Assembly (NCBI RefSeq): GCF_015482585.1
Contig: NZ_CP049742.1
Span: forward strand, 2,263,001-2,327,000
DNA: 64,000 nucleotides
Reading direction: 5' to 3'
From: Mangrovibacillus cuniculi
Lineage (GTDB): Bacteria > Bacillota > Bacilli > Bacillales > R1DC41
In this document: piece after piece, positions 10,378 through 30,604 of the stretch
How positions within the stretch are numbered: the stretch's first letter is position 1
How the letters are laid out: each line of letters starts with the position of its first letter
The notes under the pieces: model-generated
Told to the model about the DNA's origin: nothing
What the model saw: the letters and a program-made list of their open reading frames with translations, nothing else
The model's database searches: none
Translations under genes and position numbers: made by a program

Positions 10378-10403
10378 GAGCCTATATAATCACTAAAATT
10401 AAA

Positions 10404-10467: not shown

Positions 10468-12723
10468 TTACTTAACTACAACACCCGTTACAGTTTTAGC
10501 CTCAACTACATTTAATCCAAATCCAGTTGTAGCAACTCCATCTTCATCCTTGATAGAACGATCTAGTACTTGAACTGTATAAGTTCCAGCAAACTCATCA
10601 TTTGAAGGAGTACCATCTTGAAGAGTTACTGTTAATACTGTTCTTGCTACGTTGAATGCTAGATCAGAAGTAGTAACAGATACTGTATTTCCATTCTTAT
10701 CCTTAACAATGATGTCGTTTAGGATAGATGCCATTGTGATGTCAGCGTCAATAGCTTCTGAGAATGTGATAGCGAATTCATCAGCATCACTTCCTGAAGT
10801 TGTACCTGCAATAGAACTAACTACTGGCTTAATACCATCAGCAACAGTTATAGCGTTAACTGAAGTAATATCTAATGCACGATTCATTGTATCTTTAATA
10901 GCTGTTTGACCAGATACAGTATGAAGTTTCAATGCAGTAGATCCAGATAAAGCATTATATGTTAAATTAGAGTTTAATGTCAAAGTAACCTTTGTTTGGT
11001 CACTGCTGATAGTAGCAGATGTTACATACATAGTTGTAGATGGGCTAGCAGCATCTACTAATACAAATTTGTTAGGATCTACACTTGCGAAGTTAAATCT
11101 AGAAGCAGCTGTAATTTCTACAGTATTTCTAGTCTTAGCAACTACAGATGCAATATTTGCATGAGTAAATTGACCTTGTGCACTAACAATTAAGTTAGTG
11201 TTGAATTTAGTTGAATCTAATCTTGTAGAACTAGCATCTTTAAGGTTTAATAATTTAAACACATCAGCAGCTTCTAATCCAGGTATAGTAATATCAACTG
11301 ACTTATTATCACCAGCAACAGCGATTACTACATCAGCAACGTTACTTAGAGATTCAAAAGTTCCAGTAGCATCTGCATCATACAGATAATTTGACTTGTC
11401 TAATAAAGTAGTAGCACTCATTGCTTCGTCAAATGTGATACGAGCTTTGTTAGTACCAACCATTGTAATATTACCAGTCACTAATGGTGCTTTTTTATCG
11501 TTTAAAGATACAGTAGTTGTAAACTTATCCATTGTATTTTCAACAACAGAATCATCTTTAACATCCTTAATTACTAGCTTATAAGCTTGAGCATCTACAT
11601 TTGCAGTTGCAAGATTAATCGTATATTTTTTGCCCGCAGTAACTGTAGAAACAGGTGTTGCTGCTAGTGCCACAACTGCATCATTAGAATCAGTTAACTC
11701 GATGTTAGAAGAAGTGAAACCTTGAACAGTTTCTGAGAATTCAACTGTAATTGTGTTGTCACTATTTACTTTAACACTTGCTGTAGGCTTTACATTGTCA
11801 TTTTTAGCGTAGTAATTGAATGTCTTACCATCAGTTGTGTTAACTTCATTGCCAAGTACATCTTTAATACCTTTATATGTCAATGTTTGTTGTAGGAATG
11901 CAGCAGCTGCAGTTAGAGGATCACCAGAGATATCGACAGTTACTTTATTACCACTTACTGAAACTGTTCCAGCTGATAGATTATAAACAGTACCGTCAAT
12001 TGTAATTGAACCAGCATTAGCATCCACATTTTCATTAAACGTTACCTCAACTTGAGTACGTCCAGCTTCAACTGATACAACTTCTGGAGCAGTAGTATCT
12101 TCTACAGCAGAAATAGTGAATTCTTTTTTAGTAGTTTTTAGGTTTGCAAAATCAGAAACCGGCTCAACAGAAAAGCCATATGCACCTGGATTTAACTTAG
12201 TGTTTAATACTAATGTAACAACATCACCTTTAGTATTTAAAGATGTTGTTCCAGCAACTTTATTTCCATCAATTAGGAATTCGCTAAACACTTTAGAGAT
12301 TGCTGAGAATTGTACAGGCTCACTAAATTTAACTTCAATTGTCTTTGCATTGATTGATCGTGCTTCAAGTACCTCTGGGAATGTAACGTCGTTTGCAGTA
12401 GCATATTTTGTACCACTGAATTCAACTCCGTTAACTGATTTTAGCTTTTCAGCTTTAACTGCAATATCAGTTCCTTGAGATAAAGTTGTTCCAAATACAA
12501 GAGTAACTGACTTCTTGTCATCAGATACAACATATCCAACTTCACCAGCACTTACACCACCTGTAAGAGTTGTGTCCACAGTAACAGCTGTGCTAGATCC
12601 ATCCAAGTAAACTTTAAGTGTACTTGAAGAAAGTGAATCTGTATCTATTTCTGTATTGAAATTAACAGTAACGTTTTTAAGGTTATTTGCACTTCCATTT
12701 GGGAGATAGGGGACAGCATACAA
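10468..12723 (-). pseudogene. 5'-truncated S-layer-like protein gene with Ig-like (Big_5/SbsA-type) repeats
   Basis: An open frame of 751 codons with repeated Ig-like modules, for example VTVNFNTEIDTDSL, IEVKFSEPVQFS, VEVTFNENVDA and ITVEFSETVQG, each about 100 residues. This is the architecture of the C-terminal part of S-layer proteins and of the complete paralogue at 27497-30604. The N-terminus is missing: there is no signal peptide and no SLH domain, the only in-frame start is a TTG without a ribosome binding site, and a terminator hairpin (12727-12776) ends right before it, leaving no room for a promoter. I read it as the surviving 3' part of an S-layer gene cut by deletion or recombination. 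The remaining frame has no stops, so the event may be recent or the part may serve as a recombination reservoir. Confidence 0.78.
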
Positions 12724-12726
12724 TAA

Positions 12727-12776
12727 AAAAAGCCTGTGTTGTTAATTACTTAGTAATTAGCGGTACAGGCTTTTTT
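12727..12776. terminator. Strong bidirectional terminator
   Basis: AAAAAAGCCTGT and ACAGGCTTTTTT arms with an inner TTACT/AGTAA stem. It closes the repeat-protein gene at 12788 and blocks transcription into the truncated S-layer frame. Confidence 0.88.
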
Positions 12777-12787: not shown

Positions 12788-13327
12788 TTATTCATAAACT
12801 TCCTTTTTCATCTTCTTCCAACTCCCATAATGACGAATAATAGTGGATGTGGATGGAAGGTCTTGTTCCTGTGAAATTTGTGTCCACTCTTGAACTGTTG
12901 GACTTTTGCTCGGAAAAACTTCTCGTAATATCTTTCCATAATCATCTATTACAAACTGTTTTTCTAGTACTTCTTCTATTAGCTCTCGTCCTAAACGTCT
13001 TTCTAGTGTTAGGAAAGGAGGGAGATTATTTAATGCTGCATATTGGTTCCAATGATTAATCGTTTTAAAGTGTTCTTTATGTAAGTTAATCACTTGATGT
13101 AGATTTTCGTCAGTGTATTCTTTTGGTCTATGTTGCTTATTAGTACTATTACCAATACTTTCTTTTACTTCATTCCACGTTCCAAATCGCTTTATATAAG
13201 TAGTTGCCAATGGAAGATCATTTTGCTTAGCAAAGGTATTCCATTTTGCAATAGAAGTAAACTGTTCTTTGTGCTTTTTGGCTGTATCTAATAAGTATTG
13301 ATTATCGTATTGAATGCCTTTACTCAT
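12788..13327 (-). CDS. Protein made of homing-endonuclease-associated repeats
   Basis: 179 residues; ATG 13327 follows AGGAGTTTTATT. It consists of about three degenerate 50-residue helical repeats with the pattern 'FxSIxxWNxFAxxNxLPxxxTxxxRFGTWxEVKE': residues about 14-57 (KWNTFAKQNDLPLATTYIKR), 80-115 (HWNQYAALNNLPPFLTLERR) and 140-178 (EWTQISQEQDLPSTSTIIRH). Such repeats are known as the homing endonuclease associated repeat, usually DNA-binding units beside an HNH or other nuclease. No nuclease motif is seen here, so this is a repeat-only DNA-binding candidate. It is monocistronic. Its location at the edge of a variable region fits a mobile origin; the exact role is unknown. Confidence 0.72.
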   Translation of the reverse strand: MSKGIQYDNQYLLDTAKKHKEQFTSIAKWNTFAKQNDLPLATTYIKRFGTWNEVKESIGNSTNKQHRPKEYTDENLHQVINLHKEHFKTINHWNQYAALNNLPPFLTLERRLGRELIEEVLEKQFVIDDYGKILREVFPSKSPTVQEWTQISQEQDLPSTSTIIRHYGSWKKMKKEVYE

Positions 13328-13390: not shown

Positions 13391-13894
13391 TTATACTAAC
13401 TCCAAGTCATTAAGCCAATCTGTTGCAAAAGTATGTCCCTCTCTAGATAGTTTCCACATTTCCTCTTTGATGTAAGGTAAATACGTGTGATAGAGAACAT
13501 CTGAATTCGGTACATCATGTAGGATGTACAGGTATGGGTTAAGATAATGTTCTGTATTTCTTGTTAGGAATTCCTTTATAACATAATGTTTAACTACTTC
13601 TAGATGATAGAATTCTTTTAGTTCTGGGAATCCTTTAGCCATATTGTCAAAGTCTACAGCAAGGGAAAACCCATTGACTCGAAATCCAATATTATCCTTG
13701 TCAATACGTCCTATTGTTGTTCCAGTTATATTCTTATAAGAAAGCCCTAGTTTATCAATTTTATGTTCATCTTCTATAACTTCCACTGGTATTATCCTAA
13801 AAAGAGTAACTTCAGTCATTACTTGTTCGTGAGAATATTGATTCCTATTTACTCTTTCTAACCAGCTACTAAAATTTCTTTCAAAGCTAAACAC
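13391..13894 (-). CDS. Hypothetical protein, 167 residues
   Basis: Not recognised. A GTG at 13894 gives a 37-base overlap with the membrane-protein gene upstream, implying translational coupling; no canonical ribosome binding site is visible, and a later ATG at about 13818 is an alternative start. The sequence is soluble, mixed alpha/beta (GTTIGRIDKDNIGFRVNG, then VVKHYVIKEFLTRNTEH) and has no signal peptide. It forms a two-gene operon with 13858-14667, and the two proteins probably act together. No cysteine or histidine cluster suggests a metal site. Confidence 0.68.
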   Translation of the reverse strand: MFSFERNFSSWLERVNRNQYSHEQVMTEVTLFRIIPVEVIEDEHKIDKLGLSYKNITGTTIGRIDKDNIGFRVNGFSLAVDFDNMAKGFPELKEFYHLEVVKHYVIKEFLTRNTEHYLNPYLYILHDVPNSDVLYHTYLPYIKEEMWKLSREGHTFATDWLNDLELV

Positions 13895-14667
13895 CCCGGA
13901 TTCGGTGAGGGAAGTAGTGCATGTAATAAGTCAATTATGTTTGGATTATTTGACGGTGTGAACAATAACATAAAACGAGTATCTTCACTAAAAAAATCAG
14001 GGGACATCCTACATAGTATTTTTTCAATTTCTTCTTTTGTACTCTCAACTATTACGTCACATTCTAACTTAAGTTCTTTCCTACGTTGAGCATAGATCAT
14101 AGCTCTCGTTAGATTGTTCTTTCCATATTTATCATGTATTTCATCTATCCACTTTCTAAATATGGGATCTTGAATATGATCTCCATTTTGTCTATCCAAT
14201 CTCTTAAAATATGCCGCTGATTCTATTTGCCATTCTTTTTCCCTTTGTCGTTCTTTTAAAACACGCATTGGATAAGTTAATATCCTATTTAGGATAGAGA
14301 AAATATAAAAGAAGGGAAGTAGTGTAATGCCTAAAATAAGTGCGCCAATTTTTGACTGCGCAAATACCGCTAAAAACATAATTCCTATTAAGTACAGGAA
14401 TGCGGATACAGTAACAAGTAACATAAGGAACACAATTACAGCTACTACGTTAATCACCGACATGACCGGCATATCAGGATGTAGCATACCAGTCCGTTCA
14501 GCGAAAGCTACTAGTCCTAGAGAATCTAAAACTGGATAAAACCAATCGTTCCATTTCCACACAATTAAAAGTACCGATAAAATTCCTACTAGACCTGCCA
14601 TTCCTTGATTTTTTTGCATATCGTACATCTGTTTAGCATGGAGGTAATGCAATATTTGATTAACCAT
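13858..14667 (-). CDS. Hypothetical membrane protein with cytoplasmic C-terminal domain
   Basis: 269 residues. Three hydrophobic spans are visible, at about 24-40, 70-96 and 104-128, followed by a basic linker (RVLKERQREKEW) and a soluble domain of about 130 residues (AAYFKRLDRQNGDH, MSPDFFSEDTRFMLLF). No known domain is recognised. It is the first gene of a pair with the overlapping 13391-13894 gene. It sits between HU and the repeat protein inside the accessory region. Membrane-anchored pairs of unknown proteins in such islands are sometimes defence effectors, but nothing here proves that. Confidence 0.72.
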   Translation of the reverse strand: MVNQILHYLHAKQMYDMQKNQGMAGLVGILSVLLIVWKWNDWFYPVLDSLGLVAFAERTGMLHPDMPVMSVINVVAVIVFLMLLVTVSAFLYLIGIMFLAVFAQSKIGALILGITLLPFFYIFSILNRILTYPMRVLKERQREKEWQIESAAYFKRLDRQNGDHIQDPIFRKWIDEIHDKYGKNNLTRAMIYAQRRKELKLECDVIVESTKEEIEKILCRMSPDFFSEDTRFMLLFTPSNNPNIIDLLHALLPSPNPGCLALKEILVAG

Positions 14668-14810: not shown

Positions 14811-15083
14811 TTACTTAACGGAATCTTTCAATTGTTTACCTGGTTTAAAGGAAGGGTTCTTTGATGCAGCTATTTCAATCTCTTCACCTGTTTGAGGATT
14901 GCGTCCTTTACGAGCTGCTCTTTCTTTTACTTCAAAGTTCCCGAATCCAATAAGTTGTACTTTGTCACCTTTTGCTAAAGTAGTTTGAATGCTATCAAAA
15001 ATAGCGTCTACAGCTGCTGCAGCGTCTTTCTTTGAAAGTTCAGCAGACTCCATAACATTACTGACTAAATCTGTTTTGTTCAT
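14811..15083 (-). CDS. hup: HU family DNA-binding protein
   Basis: 90-residue nucleoid protein, clearly HBsu-like. The start is ATG 15083, eight bases after AGGAGG; the open frame reaches further upstream but lacks an initiation site there. The whole family pattern is present: N-terminal helices ([20 protein letters not shown]), the dimer core [17 protein letters not shown], the DNA-binding arm [16 protein letters not shown] and the closing helix [14 protein letters not shown] bends DNA without strong sequence specificity and assists recombination and replication. Bacillus chromosomes usually have a main copy elsewhere, so this may be a paralogue within the island that assists the neighbouring recombinases; that is inference. 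Confidence 0.96.
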
Positions 15084-15267
15084 GATAAATCCTCCTAAGA
15101 AATACTTCTCGTCTATATTAACATCATAAAGGCAAAAAATACTAACGATCTCCATATTGCTAAATCATATTAAGATGATATTATTTGTTGGTCCATATGA
15201 GGGAGGGGGATAATTGAAAACAGATAATAAAGTTGTTTAATTTCGTTCTTACTAATGCAATAACCAC

Positions 15268-15384: not shown

Positions 15385-16341
15385 TTAATGAATTTCAGTA
15401 ATTTCTTCATTTGAAATACTAAAAGTACTAAAATCACCCTTGAATCCACACTGCATTAAAACATCCATATATATATGATGATTCGATTTATCAAAATCAT
15501 TAAAATACCATGTGAGTTTTTTTGTATCAATCCGTTTACAAATCGCTTTTAAATATATCATATCTACTTCGCTAAATGAGAACCCAAAGGAATATATTTC
15601 ACTGATATTTGAATATGTTATAGTTTCAAAAAAATGGATTTTATTTTTTAAAGCTATTTCAGTTTTCTTTCGTAGTTGTTTATGAATTTCAAATAGACCA
15701 TTCTCCGATCCAATATAATTCTCCATATAATAATCTGTTTTATCAACAGTATTCCCATGACCAAAATAAATCTCCTCATTCTGTTTTCCATGGATATAGC
15801 AGATTCTGTCTTTTGATACCTCATAAATTTTTTCTAATGTGTCTGTGTAATTGAACGTTAAAACTAAATCTTGTTCATCTATTAATTTTAAGAAATCACT
15901 CTTCGCTTTTGCACAATTAATATCTATTGTATTAATCCAATCTGAAAATAGTTGTTGAATTGTTAATGTAGGGATTACAAGATTTGATGCAATATCTTCA
16001 TTATTATATGATGTTTTCCATAAATCTAAGTCTCCATCTTCGTCTAAAACTTCAGAATAATCAAAGGCTTTATCAAAATTTAGATTAGCCAAAGAAGCTT
16101 CAATATTACTCCATTTCTCAGTATTAGATTCAGCTTCACTAATTAAGAAAAATAACATAGATAAAATTTCTGTTTCATCATATGTAATCTCTCCGTCTGG
16201 CATATGTGTCGATTCTGGAATAACTAAACTATCCATTTCAATTTCTGTATCTGAAATTAGATGTTGTCGAAAATCATCATATGATGTTTTTAAGTCATGA
16301 GCCATATCAAAACCATTTCCAACAATAAATAGTTTGTTCAA
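15385..16341 (-). CDS. AbiH-like abortive phage infection protein
   Basis: About 318 residues. TTG 16341 is nine bases after GGAG and is preferred over the TTG at 16356, which overlaps that site. The N-terminus, NKLFIVGNGFDMAHDLKTSYDDF, carries the AbiH family signature (GNGFD, then KTSYxxF). Further family-like pieces are LVLTFNYTDTLEKIY (about residues 163-177), ICYIHGK, YFGHGN and, near the end, IYSFGFSFSEVDMIYL. AbiH was described in Lactococcus as a single-gene abortive infection system whose mechanism is unresolved. It stands alone, AT-rich, among recombination genes, which fits a defence island. The family call is good; anti-phage activity is inferred. Confidence 0.85.
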   Translation of the reverse strand: MNKLFIVGNGFDMAHDLKTSYDDFRQHLISDTEIEMDSLVIPESTHMPDGEITYDETEILSMLFFLISEAESNTEKWSNIEASLANLNFDKAFDYSEVLDEDGDLDLWKTSYNNEDIASNLVIPTLTIQQLFSDWINTIDINCAKAKSDFLKLIDEQDLVLTFNYTDTLEKIYEVSKDRICYIHGKQNEEIYFGHGNTVDKTDYYMENYIGSENGLFEIHKQLRKKTEIALKNKIHFFETITYSNISEIYSFGFSFSEVDMIYLKAICKRIDTKKLTWYFNDFDKSNHHIYMDVLMQCGFKGDFSTFSISNEEITEIH

Positions 16342-16423
16342 ATTTGCTATCTCCAATCTATACTTTTATAAAGATTTACTACAAATATTAAAACCACAAA
16401 GCTTCCCGATTATCTTTAAAACG

Positions 16424-16788
16424 AACTACTACTCCGTATTAAACTGCTTACAAACACCATAGAAAGAGATATATCGTCACAGCAAGTTCCAAATATACTA
16501 GATGAAATTGCCGAGACTACTCTAACTGCTAAACAGCTTTGGTCATCTATCCCTTCAAACTTTGTGAAAGATGACGTACAACATAAATTATACTTACTCT
16601 GTAAGCAATATAAAAACGAGTTTAATGAGATGGGGATTTATGATGGCCCTATGGAAGTACAAAGAAAGCTTTCGGCATCATTAAAAACTCAGGAGATTCA
16701 ATCTATCCTATTTGATGTACACACAATAGAAGAGAGAGAAGGGTGTCCTAATGTTTCCCTTCTCATTCTTCATCCATCTTATTCATAA
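16424..16788 (+). pseudogene. Possible remnant of an unknown gene
   Basis: A stop-free frame from about 16424 continues through GTG 16564 to a stop at 16788. Its residues look coding (AKQLWSSIPSNF, NEFNEMGIYDGPMEV) but there is no initiation site upstream, and the 3' end overlaps the recombinase gene tail on the other strand. It may be a fragment; chance cannot be excluded. Confidence 0.28.
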
Positions 16789-17902
16789 TTCTCCTTGCTT
16801 CATCTAAAGAAATATTAGTGTATAGAGAAGTCGTTTCAATAGAATTTTGTCCTAGTTGGTCACGTAAAGTAACGAGATCCCCACCATTTAGAATCCATTC
16901 GCTTGCGAAGGAGTGTCTAAGTTTGTGCGGACTAATACTTTTCCCAGTCTCGTTAAAAGCCGTTGTGTGCCGTTTTAAGCTACTCTGAACGGTTCTAGGG
17001 GAGATAGGGTTAGCTTTACCGTTATACTTGGTTAGAAAGACGTATTTGTTCTCTTTTGCAGGCTTATACCGTTCCTGTCTTATAGATAAATACTTGTTTA
17101 AGTATTCAAGCCCTAACTTGCTAATTAAGATAGTGTCACGCTTATTTCCTTTACGAATGACATCTATTGTTTCTTTCTTAAAATCAATATCAGAAAGCGT
17201 AATGTTACATAACTCCGATACTCGAACACCGCTTCCGAAAGCCACCGCATACAGCGCCATAAACCTTTCTTTGTCACGTTCATACAATTTCTTTTCCCGT
17301 TCACTTAACAGCAGATTATCGTTATTGTCACGAAGTGTAACGTATTCCTTATCTAAAAACTCCATGAACTCAATAAAAACATTCCTACTAATCATATCGC
17401 TGCTTATACGCTTAGCACGACTACTTTTCGTTTCTGCTTTTTTCTTTGTCTTTATCTTAGCCATTACATTGCGATAGAAGTAGCATTCTCCTTGATTCTC
17501 ACCAGTCTCAATTTCCGTTTCGGTAGTTAAGTAGTTAAAGAGGGATTTAAGGGCATTTTGGATGCGTAGGACACGTTCTGAACTTCTTGTAATAGTTTCA
17601 TATTCATTCTTCTTATAAGGCTCTCTAAGGTAGTCAAAGAAAGATTCTACTTCAGCCTTCTTTAACGATTCCAGAACAGTGTAAGGGATCTCTTTTATTT
17701 CTTTGCAATCCTTTGCTATTGATTCTGTAATTAACCACTGGAAGAACAGTTGAAAGTCATGCATATATCCAAGAAGAGAAGAAGGGGAGTAGTCCAAGCG
17801 TTTTTTTGCTTGAACATACTCCCACACATAGTCTGGCATGTGTTCGACTAACTCTTCTAATCTATGACTATGCTTTAATCGTTCTCTAGATTGTTGAGCC
17901 AT
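16763..17902 (-). CDS. XerS-like tyrosine recombinase
   Basis: 379-residue site-specific recombinase. The length and the long basic linker (KTKKKAETKSSRAKR, about 151-165) match the single-protein XerS group of Firmicutes rather than phage integrases. The SAM-like core-binding domain covers about 20-150 and the catalytic domain 170-379. Active-site residues are R227 (GSGVRVSEL), K251, H326 and R329 (HKLRHSF), and Y361 (TTSLYTN). The usual second His of LGH is Q352 (LGQNS). ATG 17902 is preceded by AAGGTG. It is not next to an obvious prophage. It may act on its own chromosomal or island site; two near-palindromic GCGCGAAA sites flank the next gene upstream. Confidence 0.88.
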   Translation of the reverse strand: MAQQSRERLKHSHRLEELVEHMPDYVWEYVQAKKRLDYSPSSLLGYMHDFQLFFQWLITESIAKDCKEIKEIPYTVLESLKKAEVESFFDYLREPYKKNEYETITRSSERVLRIQNALKSLFNYLTTETEIETGENQGECYFYRNVMAKIKTKKKAETKSSRAKRISSDMISRNVFIEFMEFLDKEYVTLRDNNDNLLLSEREKKLYERDKERFMALYAVAFGSGVRVSELCNITLSDIDFKKETIDVIRKGNKRDTILISKLGLEYLNKYLSIRQERYKPAKENKYVFLTKYNGKANPISPRTVQSSLKRHTTAFNETGKSISPHKLRHSFASEWILNGGDLVTLRDQLGQNSIETTSLYTNISLDEARRIMNKMDEE

Positions 17903-19749: not shown

Positions 19750-20595
19750 TCACATAAGCACATCATAAATTTCCTTACGAGCATGATGATAGAGCCTTGC
19801 ATATGTTTCTGTTTGTCTTGGATCTACATGTCCCAGTAAAGTTTGAATTCCTATTAATGGCATTCCTTTTTCTGCTAGATGTGCAGCAAACGTATGTCTT
19901 AACACATGCGGACTTACATGAAAGTCTACAAGTTGAGAATATCCTTGGAACCACACCTGAATAGTTCGTGCATGTAGTGCATTAGTACTGTATGAGTTGA
20001 TGTATAGGTATGGTAAACCATCCTTTCGATTATCTACATAACTTCGTAAATATTCCGCACAAACAGCCGTATAAACTACTATCCTTCCCTTCTTTCTCTT
20101 CCCAGAACGAATGTGTATAGTACGCAACTCCCAATCAATATCCTCTAGTTGTATTTTTACCAGTTCACTAATCCTCACCCCTGATGAATAGAGTAATTCT
20201 ATAATAGAACGCTCCATTATATTTTCTTCTGTTAAATTACGCAATTTCTGTACCTGAAATTTGTCTAAATAATACGGTATATTGTCTGGAATTTTGGGAG
20301 GTTTAAAAGAGTGAGCAGGATTCTTCACACAGATTTTTTCTTCCACACAGAATTGAAATAATAGTTTGATTGCGAACAATTCTCGTGCAATAGTTGCTGG
20401 TTGATACCCTTTTGTTTCTAAATGGACCATCCAATTTCGAATGTCTTTTGGCATAATAGTTGAAATAGGGCTATCTTGATACCTCAGGAAATAAGAAATG
20501 GAACTACTATAAATTTTTAGAGTTTTCTCATCTAATCTTGCTTGATAGCTATTTTTAAATGTCCGAATAAACGAAACTATCTCTTCTGTTTTCAC
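19750..20595 (-). CDS. Tyrosine recombinase B2, fourth gene of the recombinase operon
   Basis: 281 residues, GTG start 20595. Complete catalytic set: R141 (SGVRISEL), K in GKRKKGR (about 166-169), H230 and R233 (HVLRHTF), H256 (LGHVD) and Y265 (TETYARL). The N-terminal SAM-like domain spans about 1-95. It resembles gene 21499-22338 much more than its immediate neighbour (shared pattern PYYL, LYxSGVRxSEL, AAHLAEK, LLGHV), so it is the B copy of a second A-B pair. It starts four bases after the A2 stop, in a junction laid out like the A1-B1 junction. Both pairs probably act as hetero-recombinases; the site is unknown. Confidence 0.92.
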   Translation of the reverse strand: MKTEEIVSFIRTFKNSYQARLDEKTLKIYSSSISYFLRYQDSPISTIMPKDIRNWMVHLETKGYQPATIARELFAIKLLFQFCVEEKICVKNPAHSFKPPKIPDNIPYYLDKFQVQKLRNLTEENIMERSIIELLYSSGVRISELVKIQLEDIDWELRTIHIRSGKRKKGRIVVYTAVCAEYLRSYVDNRKDGLPYLYINSYSTNALHARTIQVWFQGYSQLVDFHVSPHVLRHTFAAHLAEKGMPLIGIQTLLGHVDPRQTETYARLYHHARKEIYDVLM

Positions 20596-20599
20596 CCTA

Positions 20600-21484
20600 C
20601 TACCCCATGTATTTCTTGTATAAGGAGATTATACTTTTATCCGGTAATCTAGCATAGATTTGAGTTGTAGATAGATCGGAGTGCCCTAGTTCTTCTGAAA
20701 TGAAAGAAATTTCAGCTCCTTTTGCTAATAAGTTTGTAGCAAACGTATGACGCAAACGGTGTGGATACACTCTTGTTCCAATAGTGTCACCGACAGTTTT
20801 CATATTTGTTTGTATGGCTCTAATACCGAGCCTCTTACCCGTAGAAGTAACAAACAATGATTGAGGTGAGATGTTCTTTGTTGCCTCTAAGTATTTTTCT
20901 AAGAGTAACGCTGCTTTTTCAGAAAAATGTACAAATCGTATCTTCTTTCCCTTTCCTGTTACTTTGGCTGTACGAGATTCAAGGTCAATATCTTCTCTAT
21001 TTAAACTACTTACTTCTCCTACCCTACACCCCGATGATAAAATAAACTCAAATAATGTTCTTTCTCTAAGTGAAAAATTCTCTATTCCATGACGAACTTT
21101 AGCCTCTTCTCCATTAGTAAGGTAACGTGGAACAGGTTGTGGTAATCGTGGAAACCATCTAAATTTCATTGGACTGCTTTCTATATAGTCTTCCTGAATA
21201 CAAAATACATAAAAAGATGAAAGGATACTAAGTCGCAAGCTCAACGTCGTTTCTTTCACATGATTTTGCTTTCTTTGATACCATTCCCAAATCTCTTCTG
21301 AGGATATATTTTTATACGACTCTGTAAAATCAGAAAAGAAATGTGTTAAAAAGCGTCTATAGACAATAATAGATCCTTTTGAGTGGTTTTTAATCTTCAT
21401 ATTAAGCAAAAAATCATTCACTATCTCTTCCGTTTCTTCATTAGGTAGCACTACTGCTAATTTCCAATAGGTTTCATTACTCAT
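20600..21484 (-). CDS. Tyrosine recombinase A2, third gene of the recombinase operon
   Basis: 294 residues; ATG 21484 lies nine bases after GGAGG. Complete catalytic set: R154 (SSGCRVGEVSSL), K178 (TGKGKKIR), H242 and R245 (HRLRHTFATNLLAKGA), H268 (LGHSD) and Y277 (TTQIYARLPD). It matches the A1 protein at 22335-23210 in the same blocks (SGCR, EVSSL, GKGKKIR, HF, FATN, ARxP) and ends in the same MG dipeptide. It follows B1 by 14 bases in one transcription unit. The A proteins differ from the B proteins at the C-terminus (FATNxLAxGA against FAAHLAEK), so each pair contributes two distinct recombinase types. Confidence 0.92.
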   Translation of the reverse strand: MSNETYWKLAVVLPNEETEEIVNDFLLNMKIKNHSKGSIIVYRRFLTHFFSDFTESYKNISSEEIWEWYQRKQNHVKETTLSLRLSILSSFYVFCIQEDYIESSPMKFRWFPRLPQPVPRYLTNGEEAKVRHGIENFSLRERTLFEFILSSGCRVGEVSSLNREDIDLESRTAKVTGKGKKIRFVHFSEKAALLLEKYLEATKNISPQSLFVTSTGKRLGIRAIQTNMKTVGDTIGTRVYPHRLRHTFATNLLAKGAEISFISEELGHSDLSTTQIYARLPDKSIISLYKKYMG

Positions 21485-21498
21485 TACACCATTCCTCC

Positions 21499-22338
21499 TT
21501 ATTGATAAAGATCATACTGCTTCTTTCTCGCATGTTCCATTAATCTCGTATAGATTCGTGTTGAGTTTATATTGACATGGCCTAGTAATTCTTGAATATA
21601 GGTATACGGCATTTGTTTTTCTGCTAAATGTGCAGCAAACGTATGTCTCATCGTATGTGGGACTACTCTAAAACCTAAAGCAGCTGAGTACCCTTGAAAT
21701 TTCTTCTCTACGAAAATTCTACTGAGAGGGTTACCTCGTTGATTGCAAAACAGATAGTTACTTTCGATTTCTCTGTTTTCCAAATAGACTTGCAGTCGAA
21801 CAGCACATTCATATGTAAACAACACAAACCTTTCTTTATTCCCTTTCCCTTTACGAATCCAAATTTGTCTAGTGTCCCATTTTATATCTTCTAGTAAAAT
21901 ATTTAATAACTCACTGACACGTACTCCAGTGGCATATAAAGCTTCTAACATCGCTCTATCTCGTATGTCTTGTAAAGTATACTCTTGTAATTCTGCTACT
22001 TGTCGTTTGGTTAAATAATATGGAAGGGAATCATCTTTCTTTGGAGTATGAATCGTAGAAGTAGGGTTTTTAATGAGCTTATTTTCCTCCATAAGGTATC
22101 GATAGAAGGATTTAATTGCTGATAATTTTAAATGAATAGTTCTTGGCTTTAGCCCTTTCTCTTCCAATGAAGATAACCAAGATCGGATATCAGTTGCTTT
22201 TACTTCATCAACAGGTTTCTCGCAATAAGTAAAAAACTGTTGTAAGGATATCTTGTAGCTCCTAACTGTGTCTTGACTAAAACGAGTTTCATGGTCAACA
22301 AAAAAAGCTTCTATACTAGAGTAGTCCACGTCCTTCAC
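21499..22338 (-). CDS. Tyrosine recombinase B1, second gene of the recombinase operon
   Basis: 279 residues, GTG start at 22338 overlapping the A1 stop by four bases (GTGA), which implies coupled translation. Catalytic residues: R140 (TGVRVSEL), K165 (RKGKGNKER), H228 and R231 (HTMRHTF), H254 (LGHVN) and Y263 (TRIYTRL). It is closest in the window to B2. The domain order is SAM-like (about 1-95), then catalytic (about 105-279), the XerC/XerD size class. No excisionase or replication gene accompanies it. Confidence 0.92.
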   Translation of the reverse strand: MKDVDYSSIEAFFVDHETRFSQDTVRSYKISLQQFFTYCEKPVDEVKATDIRSWLSSLEEKGLKPRTIHLKLSAIKSFYRYLMEENKLIKNPTSTIHTPKKDDSLPYYLTKRQVAELQEYTLQDIRDRAMLEALYATGVRVSELLNILLEDIKWDTRQIWIRKGKGNKERFVLFTYECAVRLQVYLENREIESNYLFCNQRGNPLSRIFVEKKFQGYSAALGFRVVPHTMRHTFAAHLAEKQMPYTYIQELLGHVNINSTRIYTRLMEHARKKQYDLYQ

Positions 22339-23210
22339 CCCATTTTATTTTGATACTGTGTTCTCATTTCTTCCGTTGGAATTCTTGCATATACTCTAGT
22401 TGTATTTAAATCTGCATGACCTAATTCATCTGCGATAAATTCAATACTCGCACCTCTGGCTAACATGTTTGTAGCAAATGTGTGTCTACAACAATGTGGA
22501 TGAAGAGTGAAAGAAAGTTCTGCCCTTTTCCCGATCTTACGAACTACTTCATAAATACCATCCGGTTTTAATTGTTGGTTTCGTCTATTTAAAAACAAAT
22601 AGTCCTCGTCTTGTATCTCTCTAGTATCCAAATATTCTTCTAATAATAGTAAACATTCTACAGAGAAGTGAACCTGCCTAATCTTCTTACCTTTTCCTAC
22701 AACATCTGCAGTTCGCTTCGAAAGAACAACATCTTTTATTTTTAAGCTAGATACTTCTGCACTTCGACATCCAGAGGAGAAAAGAAACAGCAATAAGGCT
22801 CTATCACGTGTAGAGAAGGATTCAGAAGCCTTTTTAACTCTAGCAAACTCTTCTTCTGACAAGTATTTTGGTAAGGAATGAGGTATTTTCGGTTTCCATC
22901 GTTTTTTCATAACTACTCTATCCATGTATCCCTCTAGCAAGCAGAATTGAAAGAAAGATGATAATACACATAGAAACAAATCGATCGTACGTGCTTTCTT
23001 TCCCTTAGAAAATTCTTGTAGCCATTGATGTACATGTAAAGAAGTAAGCTCGTCTAAAGTTACTGTAACTTCTCGAAAAAACCGATTTAACACCCATTCA
23101 TACTTTTGAAGAGTTTGTTCAGCTTTATTAGATAGTTTTAGACTTAACAAATACTCGTCTATTAATTTTTGCAGACTAGTATTCACTGTTTTATTTTCTA
23201 GATTTCCCAT
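22335..23210 (-). CDS. Tyrosine recombinase A1, first gene of the recombinase operon
   Basis: 291 residues; ATG 23210 follows AGGTGATAGA. Catalytic residues: R149 (SSGCRSAEVSSL), K173/K175 (VGKGKKIR), H239 and R242 (HCCRHTFATNMLARGA), H265 (LGHAD) and Y274 (TTRVYARIPTE). It leads the four-gene operon A1-B1-A2-B2, all on the minus strand with gaps or overlaps of 15 bases or less. A near-perfect 28-base palindrome lies 15 bases upstream of the start, where it could be an operator or the recombination core site. Confidence 0.92.
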   Translation of the reverse strand: MGNLENKTVNTSLQKLIDEYLLSLKLSNKAEQTLQKYEWVLNRFFREVTVTLDELTSLHVHQWLQEFSKGKKARTIDLFLCVLSSFFQFCLLEGYMDRVVMKKRWKPKIPHSLPKYLSEEEFARVKKASESFSTRDRALLLFLFSSGCRSAEVSSLKIKDVVLSKRTADVVGKGKKIRQVHFSVECLLLLEEYLDTREIQDEDYLFLNRRNQQLKPDGIYEVVRKIGKRAELSFTLHPHCCRHTFATNMLARGASIEFIADELGHADLNTTRVYARIPTEEMRTQYQNKMG

Positions 23211-23596: not shown

Positions 23597-24169
23597 ATGT
23601 TTAGCTGGTGCCTTACGGATTGGGTAGTTGACGATGAGTGTGAGATAGGTATTGAAACAGATGAAAACTATCAAGGAAATGGATGGGCACGAAAAACAGC
23701 ATTAGGAACACTAACCATCGCAAAACAAAGGGGCATCAAAAAAGTTGGTTGGCAATGCTGGTCTAACAACATTGCTTCTCAACGAACTGCTCTGTCTGTT
23801 GGTTTCAAGCCGCTTGCGGATTTCCCTGTTCTGTTTGGATGGAATCATCCTTTAAACAACCTCCTTGTCAACGGAAACCATTATATGCGTGGTGATCGTA
23901 AGTATGAGGTAGAGAAAGATTATCCCCGCGCGGCTTAGAGTTATGCCCAAACAATTGATGAAGGCTGGGACTGGAATGGTGATATGGCATTATACTGGAA
24001 TGCAGCTTGTATGTTATATTTGACCGGCAAAATGGACCAATCGAGTCATTATTACAAAAAGGCTATAGAAATAGGATGGAAAGATATTCATCAACCACAT
24101 TATCATGAATATGTTTATAGAGAAGAGGATAGCGATCAGATCGCACGCATACTTTCAGAGTCAGTATAA
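23597..24169 (+). pseudogene. Broken GNAT acetyltransferase gene
   Basis: A single reading frame interrupted by an in-frame TAG at 23936-23938. Before it, residues such as IGIETDENYQGNGWARKTAL and GWQCWSNNIASQRTALSVGF show acetyl-CoA binding motif A (Q/RxxGxG/A, here YQGNGWA) and motif B of GNAT enzymes. After it the same frame continues with SYAQTIDEGWDWNGDMALYWNAA and a TPR-like helical pair. The N-terminal half of motif C/D is missing, since nothing comparable precedes ATG 23597. With a truncated start and a nonsense codon it is most simply a pseudogene. Confidence 0.8.
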
Positions 24170-24722: not shown

Positions 24723-25985
24723 ATGAATTTTAATTTACATTTAAAATGTGAAGTTTGTAGTAATACAATTCGATTAAAAGTATATGCAGGATATGAACCA
24801 AAAAATAGTTTTAGCTATTCTTGTCCAGAGTGTAAAATTAGAATTACTGGTCACTTGATATGGAATGATAACCTAGAAGAAAGTTTTATTAAAGAGTTTT
24901 CTTGCATTAATGCAAAAAATACAGTGGAATTCGAAAAAGAAAGTCACGTTCTCCAAGTGGCAACAGAATTTTATACGGATAAAATTAAAAAATTTGATCC
25001 AAATGATCCGACTTTATATCTCTCTCCTTTCATGATGGAGAGTATTTCATTCGAACTTAAAAGGAGAAAACAAAGGTTTGTAAGTAATGTTACAGAAAAT
25101 TTTTCTAATGATTATAAGGTTAGTAACAGATTATGGCAATTGTATAAAATGGAAAACTATAAATATCTAAACAGACAACTTCTTTCAAATAAATTTGTTG
25201 AACCTGTATTACTAGGTGAAATATTGAAGATAGATTATTCCGATAAATTGCTAGAAGTCCTTTATAAGCCATTTTTACCTTTCCTCATCGAGAGTAAAAA
25301 AATCCCTGAATTAATAAATATTAGAAATCAATTATCTTATCTAAAGAAAAATCATAGTGCAGAACTACATCAATTAAAAATAGATTTAGAAGAGTTACTA
25401 AATTATTCCGAGGCCGAGCTTATTCTTTTATTAGATAATTTTTCAAAGTACTATAGTTATATCTGGCCAATTATACTTTCTACTTCACTTAATACCGAAG
25501 ATATAGATGAAATAAAAGAAAAAAAAGGCATTCTAACCACTGATTTTCAGGATTTAAAGAATTATTATGTTGAAGCATTTGAGGTTTTAGCATCGGCCCT
25601 ACCAATACTATTAGGGATTCAAAATATCAAGTTTAGAAAAAGTCGAAATATATTTCATGAAAGCAATGTAAAAAAATTCAAGAATATTAATTCAATTATA
25701 GATTATCATCACAATGTTAGAAAAAAAGGTTACAAAATTCAATTCTTTGAAGAAGAAAATATGTTTTCTTCCTACGATATAACAAAAGTTTTAAATAATG
25801 AAATTAGAAATAGTATAGGTCACTATTCTTATAATGTTGAATCAGATCAACAGTTAATTCATTTTATAGATGGTAAAAAAACATGTAATTTGTACCTAAT
25901 TGAATTTGCAGATTTATTATTACAAACATTTTATGCTACTTTTTTTACTTTTGAAGTAGTATTCTTTTTAAAGAATAATGTTTAG
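24723..25985 (+). CDS. Zinc ribbon protein with C-terminal HEPN-like motif
   Basis: 420 residues, ATG 24723 after GGGAAGAGAG. The N-terminus has a two-CxxC ribbon (C9, C12 and C34, C37). The long middle is helical and lysine-rich. Near the C-terminus, NEIRNSIGHYSYN holds R362-N363 and H367, the R-N-x3-H (Rx4H) signature of HEPN ribonucleases, in a helical context typical for them. HEPN proteins act as RNases in toxin-antitoxin and phage-defence systems. The next gene follows by 66 bases on the same strand. Base composition is markedly AT-rich against the flanking envelope genes, suggesting transfer. The motif is visible; nuclease activity is inferred. Confidence 0.7.
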   Translation: MNFNLHLKCEVCSNTIRLKVYAGYEPKNSFSYSCPECKIRITGHLIWNDNLEESFIKEFSCINAKNTVEFEKESHVLQVATEFYTDKIKKFDPNDPTLYLSPFMMESISFELKRRKQRFVSNVTENFSNDYKVSNRLWQLYKMENYKYLNRQLLSNKFVEPVLLGEILKIDYSDKLLEVLYKPFLPFLIESKKIPELINIRNQLSYLKKNHSAELHQLKIDLEELLNYSEAELILLLDNFSKYYSYIWPIILSTSLNTEDIDEIKEKKGILTTDFQDLKNYYVEAFEVLASALPILLGIQNIKFRKSRNIFHESNVKKFKNINSIIDYHHNVRKKGYKIQFFEEENMFSSYDITKVLNNEIRNSIGHYSYNVESDQQLIHFIDGKKTCNLYLIEFADLLLQTFYATFFTFEVVFFLKNNV

Positions 25986-26051: not shown

Positions 26052-26669
26052 ATGACTCATACTTCTAGTAAATTAAATGAAGCAAAATTTTTTAATAAAC
26101 TCCTAAAAGATCACTATTTAAAATATCCGGACTTCAATTATTATTTAAATGCATTTTTAAGCTCATCTCGTGCTGTTACATGGGTAATGAATAGTGAGTA
26201 TGACAAAACCAAAGGTTATCATGAATGGTTTGAAAATGAAAAACCAAGCGATGAAATACATGGACTATTAAAAAAAATAAATGACTTAAGAATTCAAACA
26301 AATAAAATTAAACCAGTTAGAGCAAATCCCAATGCCTTATTTACTATTGATGAAACAACAATCACTGATGAAATCAGAGAGCAATTAATAAAAATTGATA
26401 AAAAGAAAGTTTCCATTACTCTATCAGTAGCTAGCGCCGCAAGTGATGAAAAATCAAATGATGAAATTACTTTTAAAGGTAAAATCGAAAATGTCTTTAA
26501 TAGTGTCGATGAGTTTCCAGATGAAAATATTTTAGAGGTCTGTGAGAAATATGTTGAAGAGCTTGAACGTGTTGTATTAGAGTGTGAGAAAAGATTTAAA
26601 CATCTTTTGCCAGAAACTAAATATAAAGGACTTACTATTAATTTTACAAATGGTGATGTTTTAAAATAA
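26052..26669 (+). CDS. Partner protein of the zinc ribbon-HEPN gene
   Basis: 205 residues, ATG 26052 seven bases after GGAGG. Not firmly recognised. The N-terminal helix block FNYYLNAFLSSSRAVTWVM with WFENEKP resembles a widespread helical family of small cytoplasmic proteins often linked to HEPN-type folds, but no R-x4-6-H motif is present (KINDLRIQTNK stands where one might be), so it could be a catalytically dead partner. The C-terminal half is beta-rich (ISITLSVASAAS-like, then FKGKIENVFNSVDEF). It is co-directional with, and 66 bases after, the HEPN-like gene, and shares its AT-rich composition. Confidence 0.62.
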   Translation: MTHTSSKLNEAKFFNKLLKDHYLKYPDFNYYLNAFLSSSRAVTWVMNSEYDKTKGYHEWFENEKPSDEIHGLLKKINDLRIQTNKIKPVRANPNALFTIDETTITDEIREQLIKIDKKKVSITLSVASAASDEKSNDEITFKGKIENVFNSVDEFPDENILEVCEKYVEELERVVLECEKRFKHLLPETKYKGLTINFTNGDVLK

Positions 26670-27048: not shown

Positions 27049-27080
27049 TTCGACAAAGTATGAGAAGTGACAGGCACTCC
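27049..27080 (+). repeat. Partial third copy of the 93-base repeat
   Basis: TTCGACAAAG, then AGAAGTGACAGGCACTCC: 29 of 32 bases match the internal part of the 93-base repeats. CAGGCACTCC recurs once more 8 bases later. Confidence 0.65.
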
Positions 27081-27239
27081 GAATTACAGGCACTCCTATT
27101 TATTTCAAGACAAGGTTTCTGTCTTCGTTATCACTAGTAATTTTTTTTTACTGTTCTAAGACATCCAATCCATATTTCGGCAAATTAATACTTCTTTAAT
27201 TTTAGATAATTGATGATTCTTTCATTAGTTATATACTGA

Positions 27240-27394: not shown

Positions 27395-27487
27395 ACCCCG
27401 TAGAAATTAATCTACGGGGTTTTTTACCACTATTTATCTACTAATCTTTCGACAAAATGTAGGAAGTGACAGGCACTCCTGATTATA
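27395..27487. repeat. 93-base direct repeat, copy 2
   Basis: Same orientation and 90 of 93 bases identical to 10285-10377. It begins with the CCCCGTAGA/TCTACGGGG terminator and reaches to ten bases from the S-layer stop codon. Confidence 0.93.
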
Positions 27488-27496: not shown

Positions 27497-30400
27497 TTAG
27501 TTAATAGTAACTTCTTTAGCTGTAGTGAAAGCTTTAGCTTTATTACTATTAGCATCATCTTTAATGTATGTTACTGATTCTTTAGATTTAACGTTATACT
27601 TTTTGCCATCTCCATTTACAACAGTTACTACTAATAGAGAAGCATCAACTGCATCTACAGCTGTAGTGTAATCCACACCTGCAACTAGTACGTTACCATT
27701 TACATCAGTAATTACTAAGTCTTGAGCAAAGAACGTTTCATTTGTTGTTGTTAAATCTTCTGTGAAGTTAATAGTGAAAGTATTGTCATCCGCCGCAACA
27801 CCATCAGCAATAGCTGAAGTTCCCTCTAACTCAGGAGCACGGAAATCTGCAATTAGTCCAGAAACATCACTTGCAGCCATCTTAACTCCCGTTTCAGAAA
27901 CTAAGATATCAGCAGCTACGTTAAACGCAGTTAGAATATCAGCAGTATTAGTAGCTGAAGAAGCATCAGCTCCTAACACAGTCGCTTTAATTACTGTTTC
28001 GTTACTAGAATTAATTGACCAGCTATCAATAGATGCTAATGCACCATTTGTTGTTGTGAAACCTGAAGCTAAAACTACTTTCAAAGGTTTATTAACAACG
28101 ATTTCAACTGTATTAGCACCTGTTTGTTTAACTGCTGTAACAGTTGGTGCAGATTCAGTACCTACTACTCTATCATAAGCAAGTTTAGTTGTAGTGTTAC
28201 CAGCCAAGTCAGCTACACGTCCAACAGTTAGCGTTCCACCTACAACAGTTTGTTGGTCAGCTTTAGGAATAGTAATCTTTACAACCTTACCAGTTGTACC
28301 AAATAACTCTAAAGTACTATTAGCTGGTAAAGCAGCTCCTGCAAGAAGATAATTAGCAGCATTTAAAACTGAGTATTGTCCAGTAGTAGACATTTTTTCA
28401 GCATATGTTACATAGATGATATCTGAATTATCAGCAGCTGATTCTTCTACAGCTGTTACAACAACATCAGTAGCATTAGCATCTGGATCAATAGGAGTCT
28501 TATCAGTAATTGTAAATGGTAATGTTACAGTTGCTAACGCATTTGCAGTAAGAGCAGTATCTTCTTGACCTTTTACTTCTACTGTATAATTACCACCAGT
28601 TAGTTTAGAATCGAAAGTTAATGTAACTTTCTTATTAACAGCATCATAACTGTTAGTAAATCCAGTAGCAACTGCTTTACCTTCAGCATCTACAACTTTA
28701 AAGTTAGTTTCATCTTCAACTTTAGAAACGTTCATAGATTCAGAGAAGTATAATTCAACAGTTTTTTCATTAGTTACTTTAACACTATCAACTGTTGGAG
28801 ATGTTTTATCCGCAGTAACTGTAACAGGTAAAGTAATGTTTGACTCTAACTTGTTACCCCAAGCATCTTTAATTTCAGAACTTGCTGCTAGACCTTTATT
28901 TTTAACAACTAAATTAGTTGTACCTTCAGGAATTGGATAAGTTGTGAAAGTTAAAGTGAATGTTTTGTTATCAGTTGTTGTAACTGTGTCAGGGCTCCAA
29001 GCACTGAAAGTGTGATAGAAATAATCTTTTAAACTATTAGTTGCATCAAGAGTTACTTCTCTATCAAACGTTACTTTAACTTCAGTTTGTGAAGCTGATG
29101 TAACTGTTGCCGTAGGAATAGAAGTTTCTTTAGCGTAGTTTAATGTAAGTTCAGTCGCATCAATTTGGAAACCAGCATAATCTTTGAATCCAGCTAATGA
29201 GATAGTGTAATCTCCATTAGGTAAAGATGAAGCAGCTAGAGTAACTGTTACTACGTTAGAACCATTTAATGGTGATACTGTCGCAGCATACGTACCGTTA
29301 TTTACTTTAACAGTACCTGCAGTTTTTACTGGCTCATTAAAAGTGATTTCAAACTTATTAGGTCCAACTAATTTCACAGCGCTAGCAGTAGGAACTGTGT
29401 TATCAAAAACTTTTAAATTTTCTGTATATTTAACAATTGCTTCACCTTTAGCTGATTTTACATCCTTAACAACTACTGCATAGCTGGCAGGTTGTACAGA
29501 AGATACATTAGCATCAGCGATTACAACTTTAACAGATTTTTTATCTTCAGATAAAACTACATCAGCAGCATTATTTCCACCGATAGTAAAGTTAGCTTCA
29601 ACTACAGTATCAGCGTCAACTGCTTGGTTGAAGCTTACAGTAAACTCTTTAAGGTTAGTTGCACTTACCCCAGTAACCTCAGGAAGAGCACTCTCAACAG
29701 TAACTGTGATAACTAATTCTTCAGAAACGTTACCAGCAGCATCTTCTGCAAAGTAAGTTAACGTATACTCACCAGCAATTAAAGTATCGATTGCTTCAAG
29801 ATCGTTACCTTCAGCGTCTGTTAGTGTGTAGAATACTTCAACTTCTTCATCAACATTGTCAGTAGCAGTTACTTCTGGAAGAGTGAACTCAGCACCGTTA
29901 GCTACAGTTAACTCAAGTTCTCCATCATAAGCTAGTACTGGAGCTTCTTCGTCCATTACTGGCTTCTCAAGAAGATCACCGAAAGCGATATCAGCTTTGT
30001 AAGCCATTAACGCTACGTGTTGACGTTGCATTTTACCATCTACTCCGAATTTACCATCGCCAGTACCTAGGATGATTTCGTGAGAAGCAAGGATATTTAC
30101 AGCTTCCTCATAATAAGCACCTGCTGGTACGTCAGAGAAAGAACCTTCATAACCTTCTTTAAGCTCAAGCGCGTAAGCTTTTGCCATGATTACAGCGAAG
30201 TCTTGACGAGTTAGAACGTCGCTAGGGTTGAATTTGCCGTTGTATCCAGCAATGATTCCAGCTTCAGCAGCTGCGTTGATGTATCCAGTCCACCATTGGC
30301 CTTCTTTAACATCAGAGAACTTAGAAGCAGAAGTAGTATCTTCTTCTAAACCTAAAAGTTTAGAAACGATAACTGCAGCTTCAGCACGAGTTAAAGATCC

Positions 30401-30604
30401 AGTTGGATTGAAAGTTCCATCGCTGTTTCCTGTTAATACTCCTGCTTCAACTAGAGCAGAGATTTGCTCGAAGAATTGGTTGCTCTCATCTAGATCTGAG
30501 AAGTTAGCTGCGAATCCAGCTACTGGTGCTACTGCAGATGCTACCATTGCAGCAGATAATGATGTTGCTAAGAACTTACGGTGTTTTTTTGGTTGGTAAG
30601 CCAT
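27497..30604 (-). CDS. S-layer protein: three SLH domains plus Ig-like repeats
   Basis: 1,035 residues starting at ATG 30604 (MAYQPKKHRKFL), ten bases after GGGAGG; the frame extends 30 bases upstream without a start site. A signal peptide (to about GFAA) is followed by three SLH domains at about residues 30-200, with the motifs LTRAEAAVIVSKLLG, LTRQDFAVIMAKAYAL and a weaker third. Then come a cadherin/DUF5011-like module (LPEVTATDNVDEEVEVFYTL) and a series of Big_5/SbsA-type Ig domains (FTVSFNQAVDADTV, FEITFNEPVKTA, VELYFSESMNVS). SLH domains hold the protein on pyruvylated wall polysaccharide. A strong promoter and long leader support high expression. It is the complete paralogue of the truncated frame at 10468-12723. 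Probably the main, or a major, S-layer protein. Confidence 0.92.
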   Translation of the reverse strand: MAYQPKKHRKFLATSLSAAMVASAVAPVAGFAANFSDLDESNQFFEQISALVEAGVLTGNSDGTFNPTGSLTRAEAAVIVSKLLGLEEDTTSASKFSDVKEGQWWTGYINAAAEAGIIAGYNGKFNPSDVLTRQDFAVIMAKAYALELKEGYEGSFSDVPAGAYYEEAVNILASHEIILGTGDGKFGVDGKMQRQHVALMAYKADIAFGDLLEKPVMDEEAPVLAYDGELELTVANGAEFTLPEVTATDNVDEEVEVFYTLTDAEGNDLEAIDTLIAGEYTLTYFAEDAAGNVSEELVITVTVESALPEVTGVSATNLKEFTVSFNQAVDADTVVEANFTIGGNNAADVVLSEDKKSVKVVIADANVSSVQPASYAVVVKDVKSAKGEAIVKYTENLKVFDNTVPTASAVKLVGPNKFEITFNEPVKTAGTVKVNNGTYAATVSPLNGSNVVTVTLAASSLPNGDYTISLAGFKDYAGFQIDATELTLNYAKETSIPTATVTSASQTEVKVTFDREVTLDATNSLKDYFYHTFSAWSPDTVTTTDNKTFTLTFTTYPIPEGTTNLVVKNKGLAASSEIKDAWGNKLESNITLPVTVTADKTSPTVDSVKVTNEKTVELYFSESMNVSKVEDETNFKVVDAEGKAVATGFTNSYDAVNKKVTLTFDSKLTGGNYTVEVKGQEDTALTANALATVTLPFTITDKTPIDPDANATDVVVTAVEESAADNSDIIYVTYAEKMSTTGQYSVLNAANYLLAGAALPANSTLELFGTTGKVVKITIPKADQQTVVGGTLTVGRVADLAGNTTTKLAYDRVVGTESAPTVTAVKQTGANTVEIVVNKPLKVVLASGFTTTNGALASIDSWSINSSNETVIKATVLGADASSATNTADILTAFNVAADILVSETGVKMAASDVSGLIADFRAPELEGTSAIADGVAADDNTFTINFTEDLTTTNETFFAQDLVITDVNGNVLVAGVDYTTAVDAVDASLLVVTVVNGDGKKYNVKSKESVTYIKDDANSNKAKAFTTAKEVTIN

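Follow-up and report, generated by a model that had tools for sequence, protein, structure and literature searches.

A quartet of tyrosine recombinases as the probable integration and excision module of an integrative-island family in Bacillota

The window analysed here, a 64,000-nucleotide stretch of Mangrovibacillus cuniculi DNA (contig NZ_CP049742.1, positions 2,263,001 to 2,327,000), contains an operon of four tyrosine recombinase genes in the order A1-B1-A2-B2, referred to below as the quartet. In our judgement this operon most probably serves a Bacillota family of integrative islands as their module for integration and excision and is not an inversion switch, and in the window and four further genomes the island appears to have replaced the tail of a surface-layer (S-layer) protein.

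All four genes are intact and lie head to tail on the minus strand from 23210 to 19750, namely A1 (22335-23210, 291 residues), B1 (21499-22338, 279 residues), A2 (20600-21484, 294 residues) and B2 (19750-20595, 281 residues), the start of B1 overlapping the end of A1 by four bases. The open reading frames (ORFs) bear out the single-strand order and the GTG starts of B1 and B2 that a first-pass annotation had read from the sequence, and residue alignment confirmed its claim that the catalytic R-K-H-R-H-Y set is kept in all four products. Each product, assigned from its ORF, Pfam matches, tree position and catalytic residues, combines this set with the catalytic domain PF00589 (E 6.9e-32 or better), as is characteristic of the tyrosine recombinase family, and also carries the N-terminal SAM-like domain PF02899. 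The catalytic set is whole in 68 of the 69 aligned quartet rows (A1 18/18, A2 17/17, B2 16/16, B1 17/18). Against NF040815 (XerA-type tyrosine recombinase/integron integrase, equivalog cut-off 220 bits), B1 scored 230.3, A1 218.9, A2 199.1 and B2 195.3 bits, while the cut-off of the integron-integrase model TIGR02249 (265 bits) was not reached, the best quartet score being 105.6 bits. Gene linkage and the intact catalytic sets suggest that the four different proteins would act together as a heteromer. Unusually long A2 proteins of 514-635 residues occur at four loci (L061:9768-11312, L063:9074-10636 and L071:9173-11080 on the minus strand, L093:5411-7306 on the plus strand); according to the alignment, a single catalytic domain is preceded in these by tandem core-binding-like units, three in L061 and L063 and four in L071 and L093, and PF02899 matched four stretches in L093, three in L071, three in L061 and two in L063.

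The origin of the quartet from a duplicated A-B module, which the first-pass annotation had proposed, is supported. A1 and A2 share 39.8% identity and B1 and B2 43.5%, against 27.7-29.6% for the four cross pairs, and in a corrected tree of 80 rows, including 11 Xer, XerS and plasmid rows, A1 and A2 form one group (support 100/100), B1 and B2 another (100/99), with A and B together separate from the 11 outside rows (97/89). The phylogeny that had been suggested as a check therefore places A1 with A2 and B1 with B2, and a tree that parted either couple was not obtained. Within these groups A1, B1 and B2 are clades; A2 is not, since the A2 rows of family f35 (L072, L073) group with A1 and two changes are needed. 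Several sub-groups (L064 with L094; L067-L069) reappear in the part of the tree that belongs to each of the four genes, a pattern to be expected if the unit is inherited together. In the search of the phylum described below, an A-B pair lacking a second pair was found intact at L247 (G468) and with a split A gene at L250 (G492); the quartet may accordingly have the lone A-B pair as its older, ancestral form.

When 397 genomes of the order were searched with B1 as query, 55 matches were obtained, the B1 relatives being 60-75% identical, and a complete quartet was found in 12 genomes (G000, G342, G116, G206, G362, G130, G284, G091, G289, G330, G258 and G159) patchily spread over nine families; as no more than six first-look candidates were scored per genome, these counts may be low. 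In G106 the contig stops within B2, and decayed quartets remain in G378, G262, G307 and G100. Among the matches listed in named species, further complete quartets belong to Gracilibacillus, Sporosarcina, Neobacillus niacini and Metabacillus litoralis, whereas those of Desulfosporosinus, a Peptococcaceae genome, Desulforamulus and Cytobacillus are cut, broken or fragmentary. A search of the phylum under the same candidate limit, with possibly low counts as well, matched 6 of 398 genomes, the window's own included, and yielded a quartet in G535, a broken quartet in G590 and two tandem quartets in G445, where one A gene is shortened and stops are read in two B matches. The tandem quartets of G445 (L249) alternate with secreted-type proteins whose first residues are common and whose tails differ. 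The searches for pairs and quartets that had been suggested thus recovered both, and of the description of the quartet as unusual, its rarity stands (12 of 397) and its uniqueness does not.

A precise insertion is seen in G130, a relative carrying the quartet, whose island is bounded by direct att (attachment) repeats, with the core copy AATTCCCATTAACGA at either end and a shared spacer, and can be set against the empty site of its congeners. On the right the island adjoins intergenic DNA that its congeners share (28 of the 31 genomes of the genus matched), ahead of a gene that we take to be sigL from its place before cggR and gap. In the flank comparison, made with 8 of the 20 congener loci listed, right-flank homology sets in just ahead of the predicted 6-bp spacer, by two bases at seven loci and by eight bases at one. 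A pattern search located the left core copy on the same strand at a distance of 31.9 kb, and left-flank matches extend up to it in seven of the eight loci, with 1,006 and 1,143 aligned bases in L173 and L181 and 50-216 in the other five, together with further matching pieces. The joined site ACCA(A/G)CGAATTCCCATTAACGAAC is present in 11 of the 20 congener loci listed and a variant of it in four, and the quartet was found in none of the 19 congeners searched (E<=1e-48). Direct att repeats plus an empty site, by which an integrative element is recognized, were thus found together for this relative of the window quartet.

A second line of evidence comes from L067 and L068, which represent two species of one genus and have in common an 8,148-bp block of 99.1% identity, containing a Tmn-like NTPase gene and the quartet. 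Beyond this block the DNA is unrelated over the 19 and 40 kb compared, save for one 91-bp match. The left end of the block is an intergenic stretch (CAATCTAGGAGC...) with no TTAACG site, so that this edge may stem from homologous recombination. Of the two roles that the first-pass annotation had considered, element mobility is supported by the two-flank comparison in G130 and by this block in different surroundings; DNA inversion is not supported, as the seven two-copy loci all have direct repeats. The site was searched on both strands of 18 loci, and the pairs that fit the model are direct, from which excision and integration are predicted rather than inversion. A plasmid or phage origin was likewise considered and rejected: tblastn of B1 gave no plasmid or phage match of at least 60% identity, and IMG/VR yielded no relative of B1. 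Genes of integrative conjugative elements or prophages were represented by a sub-threshold Mob_Pre match only (13858-14667, E 0.0022), no scan aimed at conjugation or virion genes having been made.

The right ends of these islands follow one order: first a terminator-like hairpin, then about 28 bp, then a left arm (GGAAA or similar), and finally a 6-bp spacer and TTAACG. We propose that the recombinases join the circular island, at a site of its own, to a site in the chromosome with the same composition (a left arm, then 6 bp of spacer, then TTAACG or a similar sequence), which would leave direct att copies at both ends, with the quartet usually near the right (attR) end. The quartet lies less than 0.4 kb from the right end in L061, L062, L065 and L066 and 2.5 kb from it in L063, and att copies were found at both ends of 6 of the 12 complete quartets of the order search (five in S-layer genes, and G130). 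Between B2 and the hairpin, inspection by eye revealed a second site in several islands, GCGTNAA-N7-TTAACGC, which is more palindromic and is present in full form in L065 and L069 and in near forms in L064, L066, L068, L092, L094 and L096. The 99% block of L067 stops inside this second site, so the latter may also be a crossover point. In Metabacillus litoralis (L096) the second-site module occurs three times (3406-3470, 12594-12658 and 15575-15610), once directly after B2, perhaps as another tandem array. Genome G428 (L222-L227), in which no quartet was found at E<=1e-48, has five places, spread over four contigs, at which hairpin, TTCCCA-TTAACG and the left end of an island meet; the second site is present at four of these junctions, and two of them are 15.5 kb apart on one strand. 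They mark islands that lack the quartet.

Several known elements work in a similar manner, and the gene content excludes the quartet from each of them as far as they are described. Recombinases in trio (RITs), in which several tyrosine recombinases likewise act on one element, are three-gene units of three recombinase types. Neither such a unit nor the TnpA-TnpB-TnpC arrangement of Tn554 was found here, the quartet consisting of four genes of two types. Tn554 does resemble it in having several tyrosine recombinases on one element (PMC10214605, in part), and RitA has two core-binding domains according to the section used of PMC8138268, compared with three or four in some A2 proteins. The strand-biased circularizing element (SE), in the description available, likewise has a four-gene core with two catalytic tyrosine recombinases and a 6-bp footprint; unlike the quartet it is organized as intA-tfp-intB-srap, has imperfect inverted repeats of 13-19 bp, forms no empty site and belongs to Gammaproteobacteria. 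One recombinase-like protein without catalytic motif is typical of SEs, whereas the four window genes are all catalytic by their residues. Nearer by host is IME8 of Lysinibacillus sphaericus, an island of the Bacillota that depends for its excision on a multi-gene unit containing two tyrosine recombinases and which, like the putative window island, is inserted within a coding gene, in its case yolD; its unit differs in being int1-int2-hp3, with two recombinases of altered catalytic sets and another target, and S-layers are not mentioned in the portion of the account consulted (PMC13239906).

GInts, genomic islands with three integrases, share these features with the quartet islands: a several-recombinase operon at one island end, variable cargo, short imperfect direct att repeats, a 6-nt spacer with proposed staggered cuts, and integration at a gene (PMC5385486, in the part drawn on here); they also bear defence genes in Escherichia coli (PMC10121019, in part). 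Short direct repeats with a 6-nt spacer are found in the quartet islands too, and by analogy with GInts and with tyrosine recombinases generally, the quartet would cut on either side of the spacer and swap strands. That the quartet is a divergent GInt or Tn554-like element whose gene content has drifted beyond recognition is nevertheless unlikely. GInts have three integrases, of which GinC lacks the first Arg, and the small HLH protein GinD (PMC5385486, same part), as opposed to four catalytic recombinases in two sister pairs with all six residues whole in nearly every row. The ginABCD gene set was not found in the quartet, no small fourth gene was seen, and the genes after B2 vary between loci, as judged from ORFs of at least 70-80 codons. 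Replacement of an S-layer tail is not mentioned in the part of the GInt account used (PMC5385486), and the likeness was judged by description.

In the window the target appears to be an S-layer gene (27497-30634, minus strand) encoding 1045 residues with three SLH and several Ig-like domains. A putative attL core copy AGTGCAACTAACCTTAAA, which the first-pass annotation had not noted, lies within this gene (29648-29665, minus strand) and a putative attR copy AGTGCAAATAACCTTAAA (12676-12693, minus strand) near the start of a headless tail, both with spacer GTGCAA. These are the two exact matches to AGTGCNANTAACNNTAAA in the genome; with one mismatch allowed there are four, versus two for a reversed-pattern control. 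The presumed displaced tail (10468-12723, minus strand) is an ORF of 751 codons that encodes Ig-like repeats (Big_5, CopC) and gave no match to SLH, and a terminator-like hairpin (12725-12776, minus strand; z -2.7, with 3 of 200 shuffles folding as well) lies just inside the putative right end. The island would accordingly extend from 12.68 to 29.66 kb and would have supplied the 722 S-layer residues after about position 323. A 93-bp repeat (27395-27487, plus strand) just past the S-layer stop codon recurs past the displaced tail (10285-10377, plus strand) with 97% identity. A short repeat with GTGACAGGCACTCC or close forms is also found near S-layer 3' ends (27049-27103, 27448-27486 and 10338-10378).

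The same arrangement occurs in five genomes (the window, L061, L062, L063 and L066): one core copy belongs to the reading frame of an S-layer-type gene, directly behind the portion for the cell-wall anchor, and a direct second copy past the quartet stands in the frame of a headless S-layer tail. Spacers are equal within each pair (GTGCAA in the window, CTGCAA in L063, GTGCGA in the other three), the copies are 16,972 bp apart in the window and 27,588, 6,304, 10,017 and 6,153 bp apart in L061, L062, L063 and L066, respectively, and the S-layer reading frame, as read from the sequence, is continuous through the core. The target would be a stretch encoding V-S/T-A-x-N or a near form, at which integration would keep the frame and fuse the resident anchor to an island-borne tail, the old tail being left headless beyond the island and probably silent. 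In these five genomes the outer 620-722 residues would be island-derived. Island and displaced tails show at most distant likeness (24-44% over local matches; the window's displaced tail was compared across codons 1-397), which would make the change of coat a real one. The open frame of the L061 tail begins 48 codons ahead of the site. Only the right copy and the tail are present in L093, and only the S-layer copy with a broken quartet in L074, while the B2 remnant of L076 is flanked by copies of a gene end, presumably of ywbE, with spacer GTACGG. The nearest empty-site comparison for the window type is that of G206 (L063) with its congener G295, which keeps synteny on the left side and has an S-layer gene that continues uninterrupted through the same core; G295 was among the genomes of the B1 search and not among its 55 matches. 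In L061 and L062, which belong to two different families, the S-layer insertions lie downstream of genes that, by their sequences, resemble galU and a UDP-glucose dehydrogenase gene.

Five genomes have alternative tails to the left and right of the quartet (one tail is broken), as would also be expected of a resident, non-mobile S-layer switch, in which the quartet evolved to exchange expressed and silent tails in phase or antigenic variation and mobility is secondary. The 97% identity of the 3' flanks of both window tails, as if from one S-layer locus lineage, fits such a switch. We consider this explanation improbable, because the sites are direct and a single exchange would delete the quartet rather than flip the tail, because the G130 island lies in non-S-layer DNA and the L076 remnant at another gene end, and because the L067/L068 block is common to two species in different surroundings. 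S-layer or cell-wall proteins are switched by DNA rearrangement in Geobacillus stearothermophilus, Campylobacter and Clostridium difficile (cited in PMC3919590, in part), with the same outcome, a different surface protein after rearrangement; those switches are rearrangements between resident loci or inversions, whereas the quartet island would bring a new tail from outside.

A number of observations weigh against an island-borne module acting at these sites. In five of the 20 congener loci listed for G130 (L182, L185, L186, L188 and L190) the left arm resembles the right end of the island, perhaps as a scar or as another island; one or both ends were not located in L064, L067, L068, L069, L071 and L073; and B1 of L066 has M in place of the second catalytic Arg. 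The window quartet lies mid-island, 7 kb from the putative right end, unlike those of L061, L062, L065 and L066, and its core copies differ at one base adjoining the spacer (CTAACC versus ATAACC). The displaced tail of L066 breaks frame after 29 codons, and the right flank of G295 is not syntenic with that of G206. Searches for the L062 tail in 40 genomes of its family and for the L062 anchor in 4 genomes of its genus each recovered one genome, its own (G116). The genome sample includes no member of the window's genus or family, so an island-free S-layer gene is not shown for the window. The 93-bp repeat suggests that the island tail comes from the same S-layer lineage, which suits resident tail switching too, and the shared start of an Ig-like domain at both window copies could explain part of their likeness through protein conservation.

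A further alternative is coincidence, in which unrelated recombinases would merely stand beside a tandem S-layer duplication, the site being a conserved Ig-like-domain start. The site does encode S/T-A-I-N-A or G in four of the five loci, and loose forms of the pattern match elsewhere, in S-layer genes and outside. As the spacer agreement stands without a chance control as well, the weight rests on position, co-changing spacers and G130. The downstream copy falls within the first 50 codons of the anchorless tail ORF, behind a hairpin, in the window, L061, L062 and L093; where a spacer differs from GTGCGA, the two copies differ from it alike (window, L063, L076); and in G130, whose target is non-coding, the right end of the island again has the TTAACG core behind a hairpin of this kind, all of which makes coincidence very improbable. 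A XerCD-type system for chromosome- or plasmid-dimer resolution can be dismissed as extremely improbable: all four proteins are Xer-like, yet even the best, B1, misses the NCBIfam equivalog cut-offs by far (230.5 of 335.15 bits for XerC, 223.2 of 329.6 for XerD), two further Xer-like genes lie elsewhere in the window genome, and complete quartets occur patchily, in 12 of 397 genomes.

The quartet as integration and excision module of mobile islands may be extended, tentatively, to a coat-swapping island. Its coding target behind the anchor would keep anchor and promoter while replacing 620-722 residues, and the likely phage receptor would be changed by an island that also carries the anti-phage gene abiH. 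Island gain would thus alter the outer coat and perhaps phage sensitivity, the new tail arriving with the island, being displayed, and being lost on excision; clean excision would restore the former coat, the old tail serving as a reversible spare. The four recombinases might each be assigned to one of the four attL/attR arms, which would control direction without a separate factor, and the islands may still be able to excise and transfer. If this is correct, one integration changes a likely phage receptor and installs an intracellular defence on one mobile unit, S-layer tails are exchangeable in a single event, and the islands provide a natural setting in which to ask why four enzymes are required for a single recombination. 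With so rigid a site grammar (arm, N6, TTAACG), islands of this kind can be found and tested. Among the literature matches listed there was no four-recombinase A-B-A-B module and no island that swaps S-layer tails, most subscription journals and bioRxiv lying outside the coverage.

The putative cargo of the window island includes, on the minus strand, an AbiH-family abortive-infection gene (15385-16356; PF14253 E 4.7e-54, PADLOC AbiH E 9.4e-27), a homing-endonuclease-associated repeat protein (12788-13327, PF18780 E 8.2e-10), and an HU-type DNA-binding protein (14811-15155, PF00216 E 2.7e-36) and a XerS-family tyrosine recombinase of 379 residues (16763-17902, NCBIfam 372.7 bits, cut-off 267), the latter two being cargo or accessory. 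This fifth recombinase within the putative island corrects the earlier statement that no other mobile genes are present; a XerS-like gene also adjoins B2 in L092. On the plus strand are a GNAT-like ORF (23597-23938) and proteins of 420 (24723-25985) and 205 residues (26052-26669) with no Pfam match. AbiH was the one PADLOC match among eight window island proteins, and one L067 protein, picked for its size and upstream place, matched Tmn (E 1e-94), too narrow a coverage for estimating how often defence genes are carried. Sets of three recombinase-like genes (about 365, 660 and 128 residues), which we presume to be Tn554-like by size only, adjoin the quartet or its remnant in L068 (11378-14853, oriented) and L099 (11344-14797). 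Elsewhere in the window, the region 52385-52957 displays strong internal repetition with offsets in multiples of 42 bp and 89-94% identity, and it overlaps ORFs.

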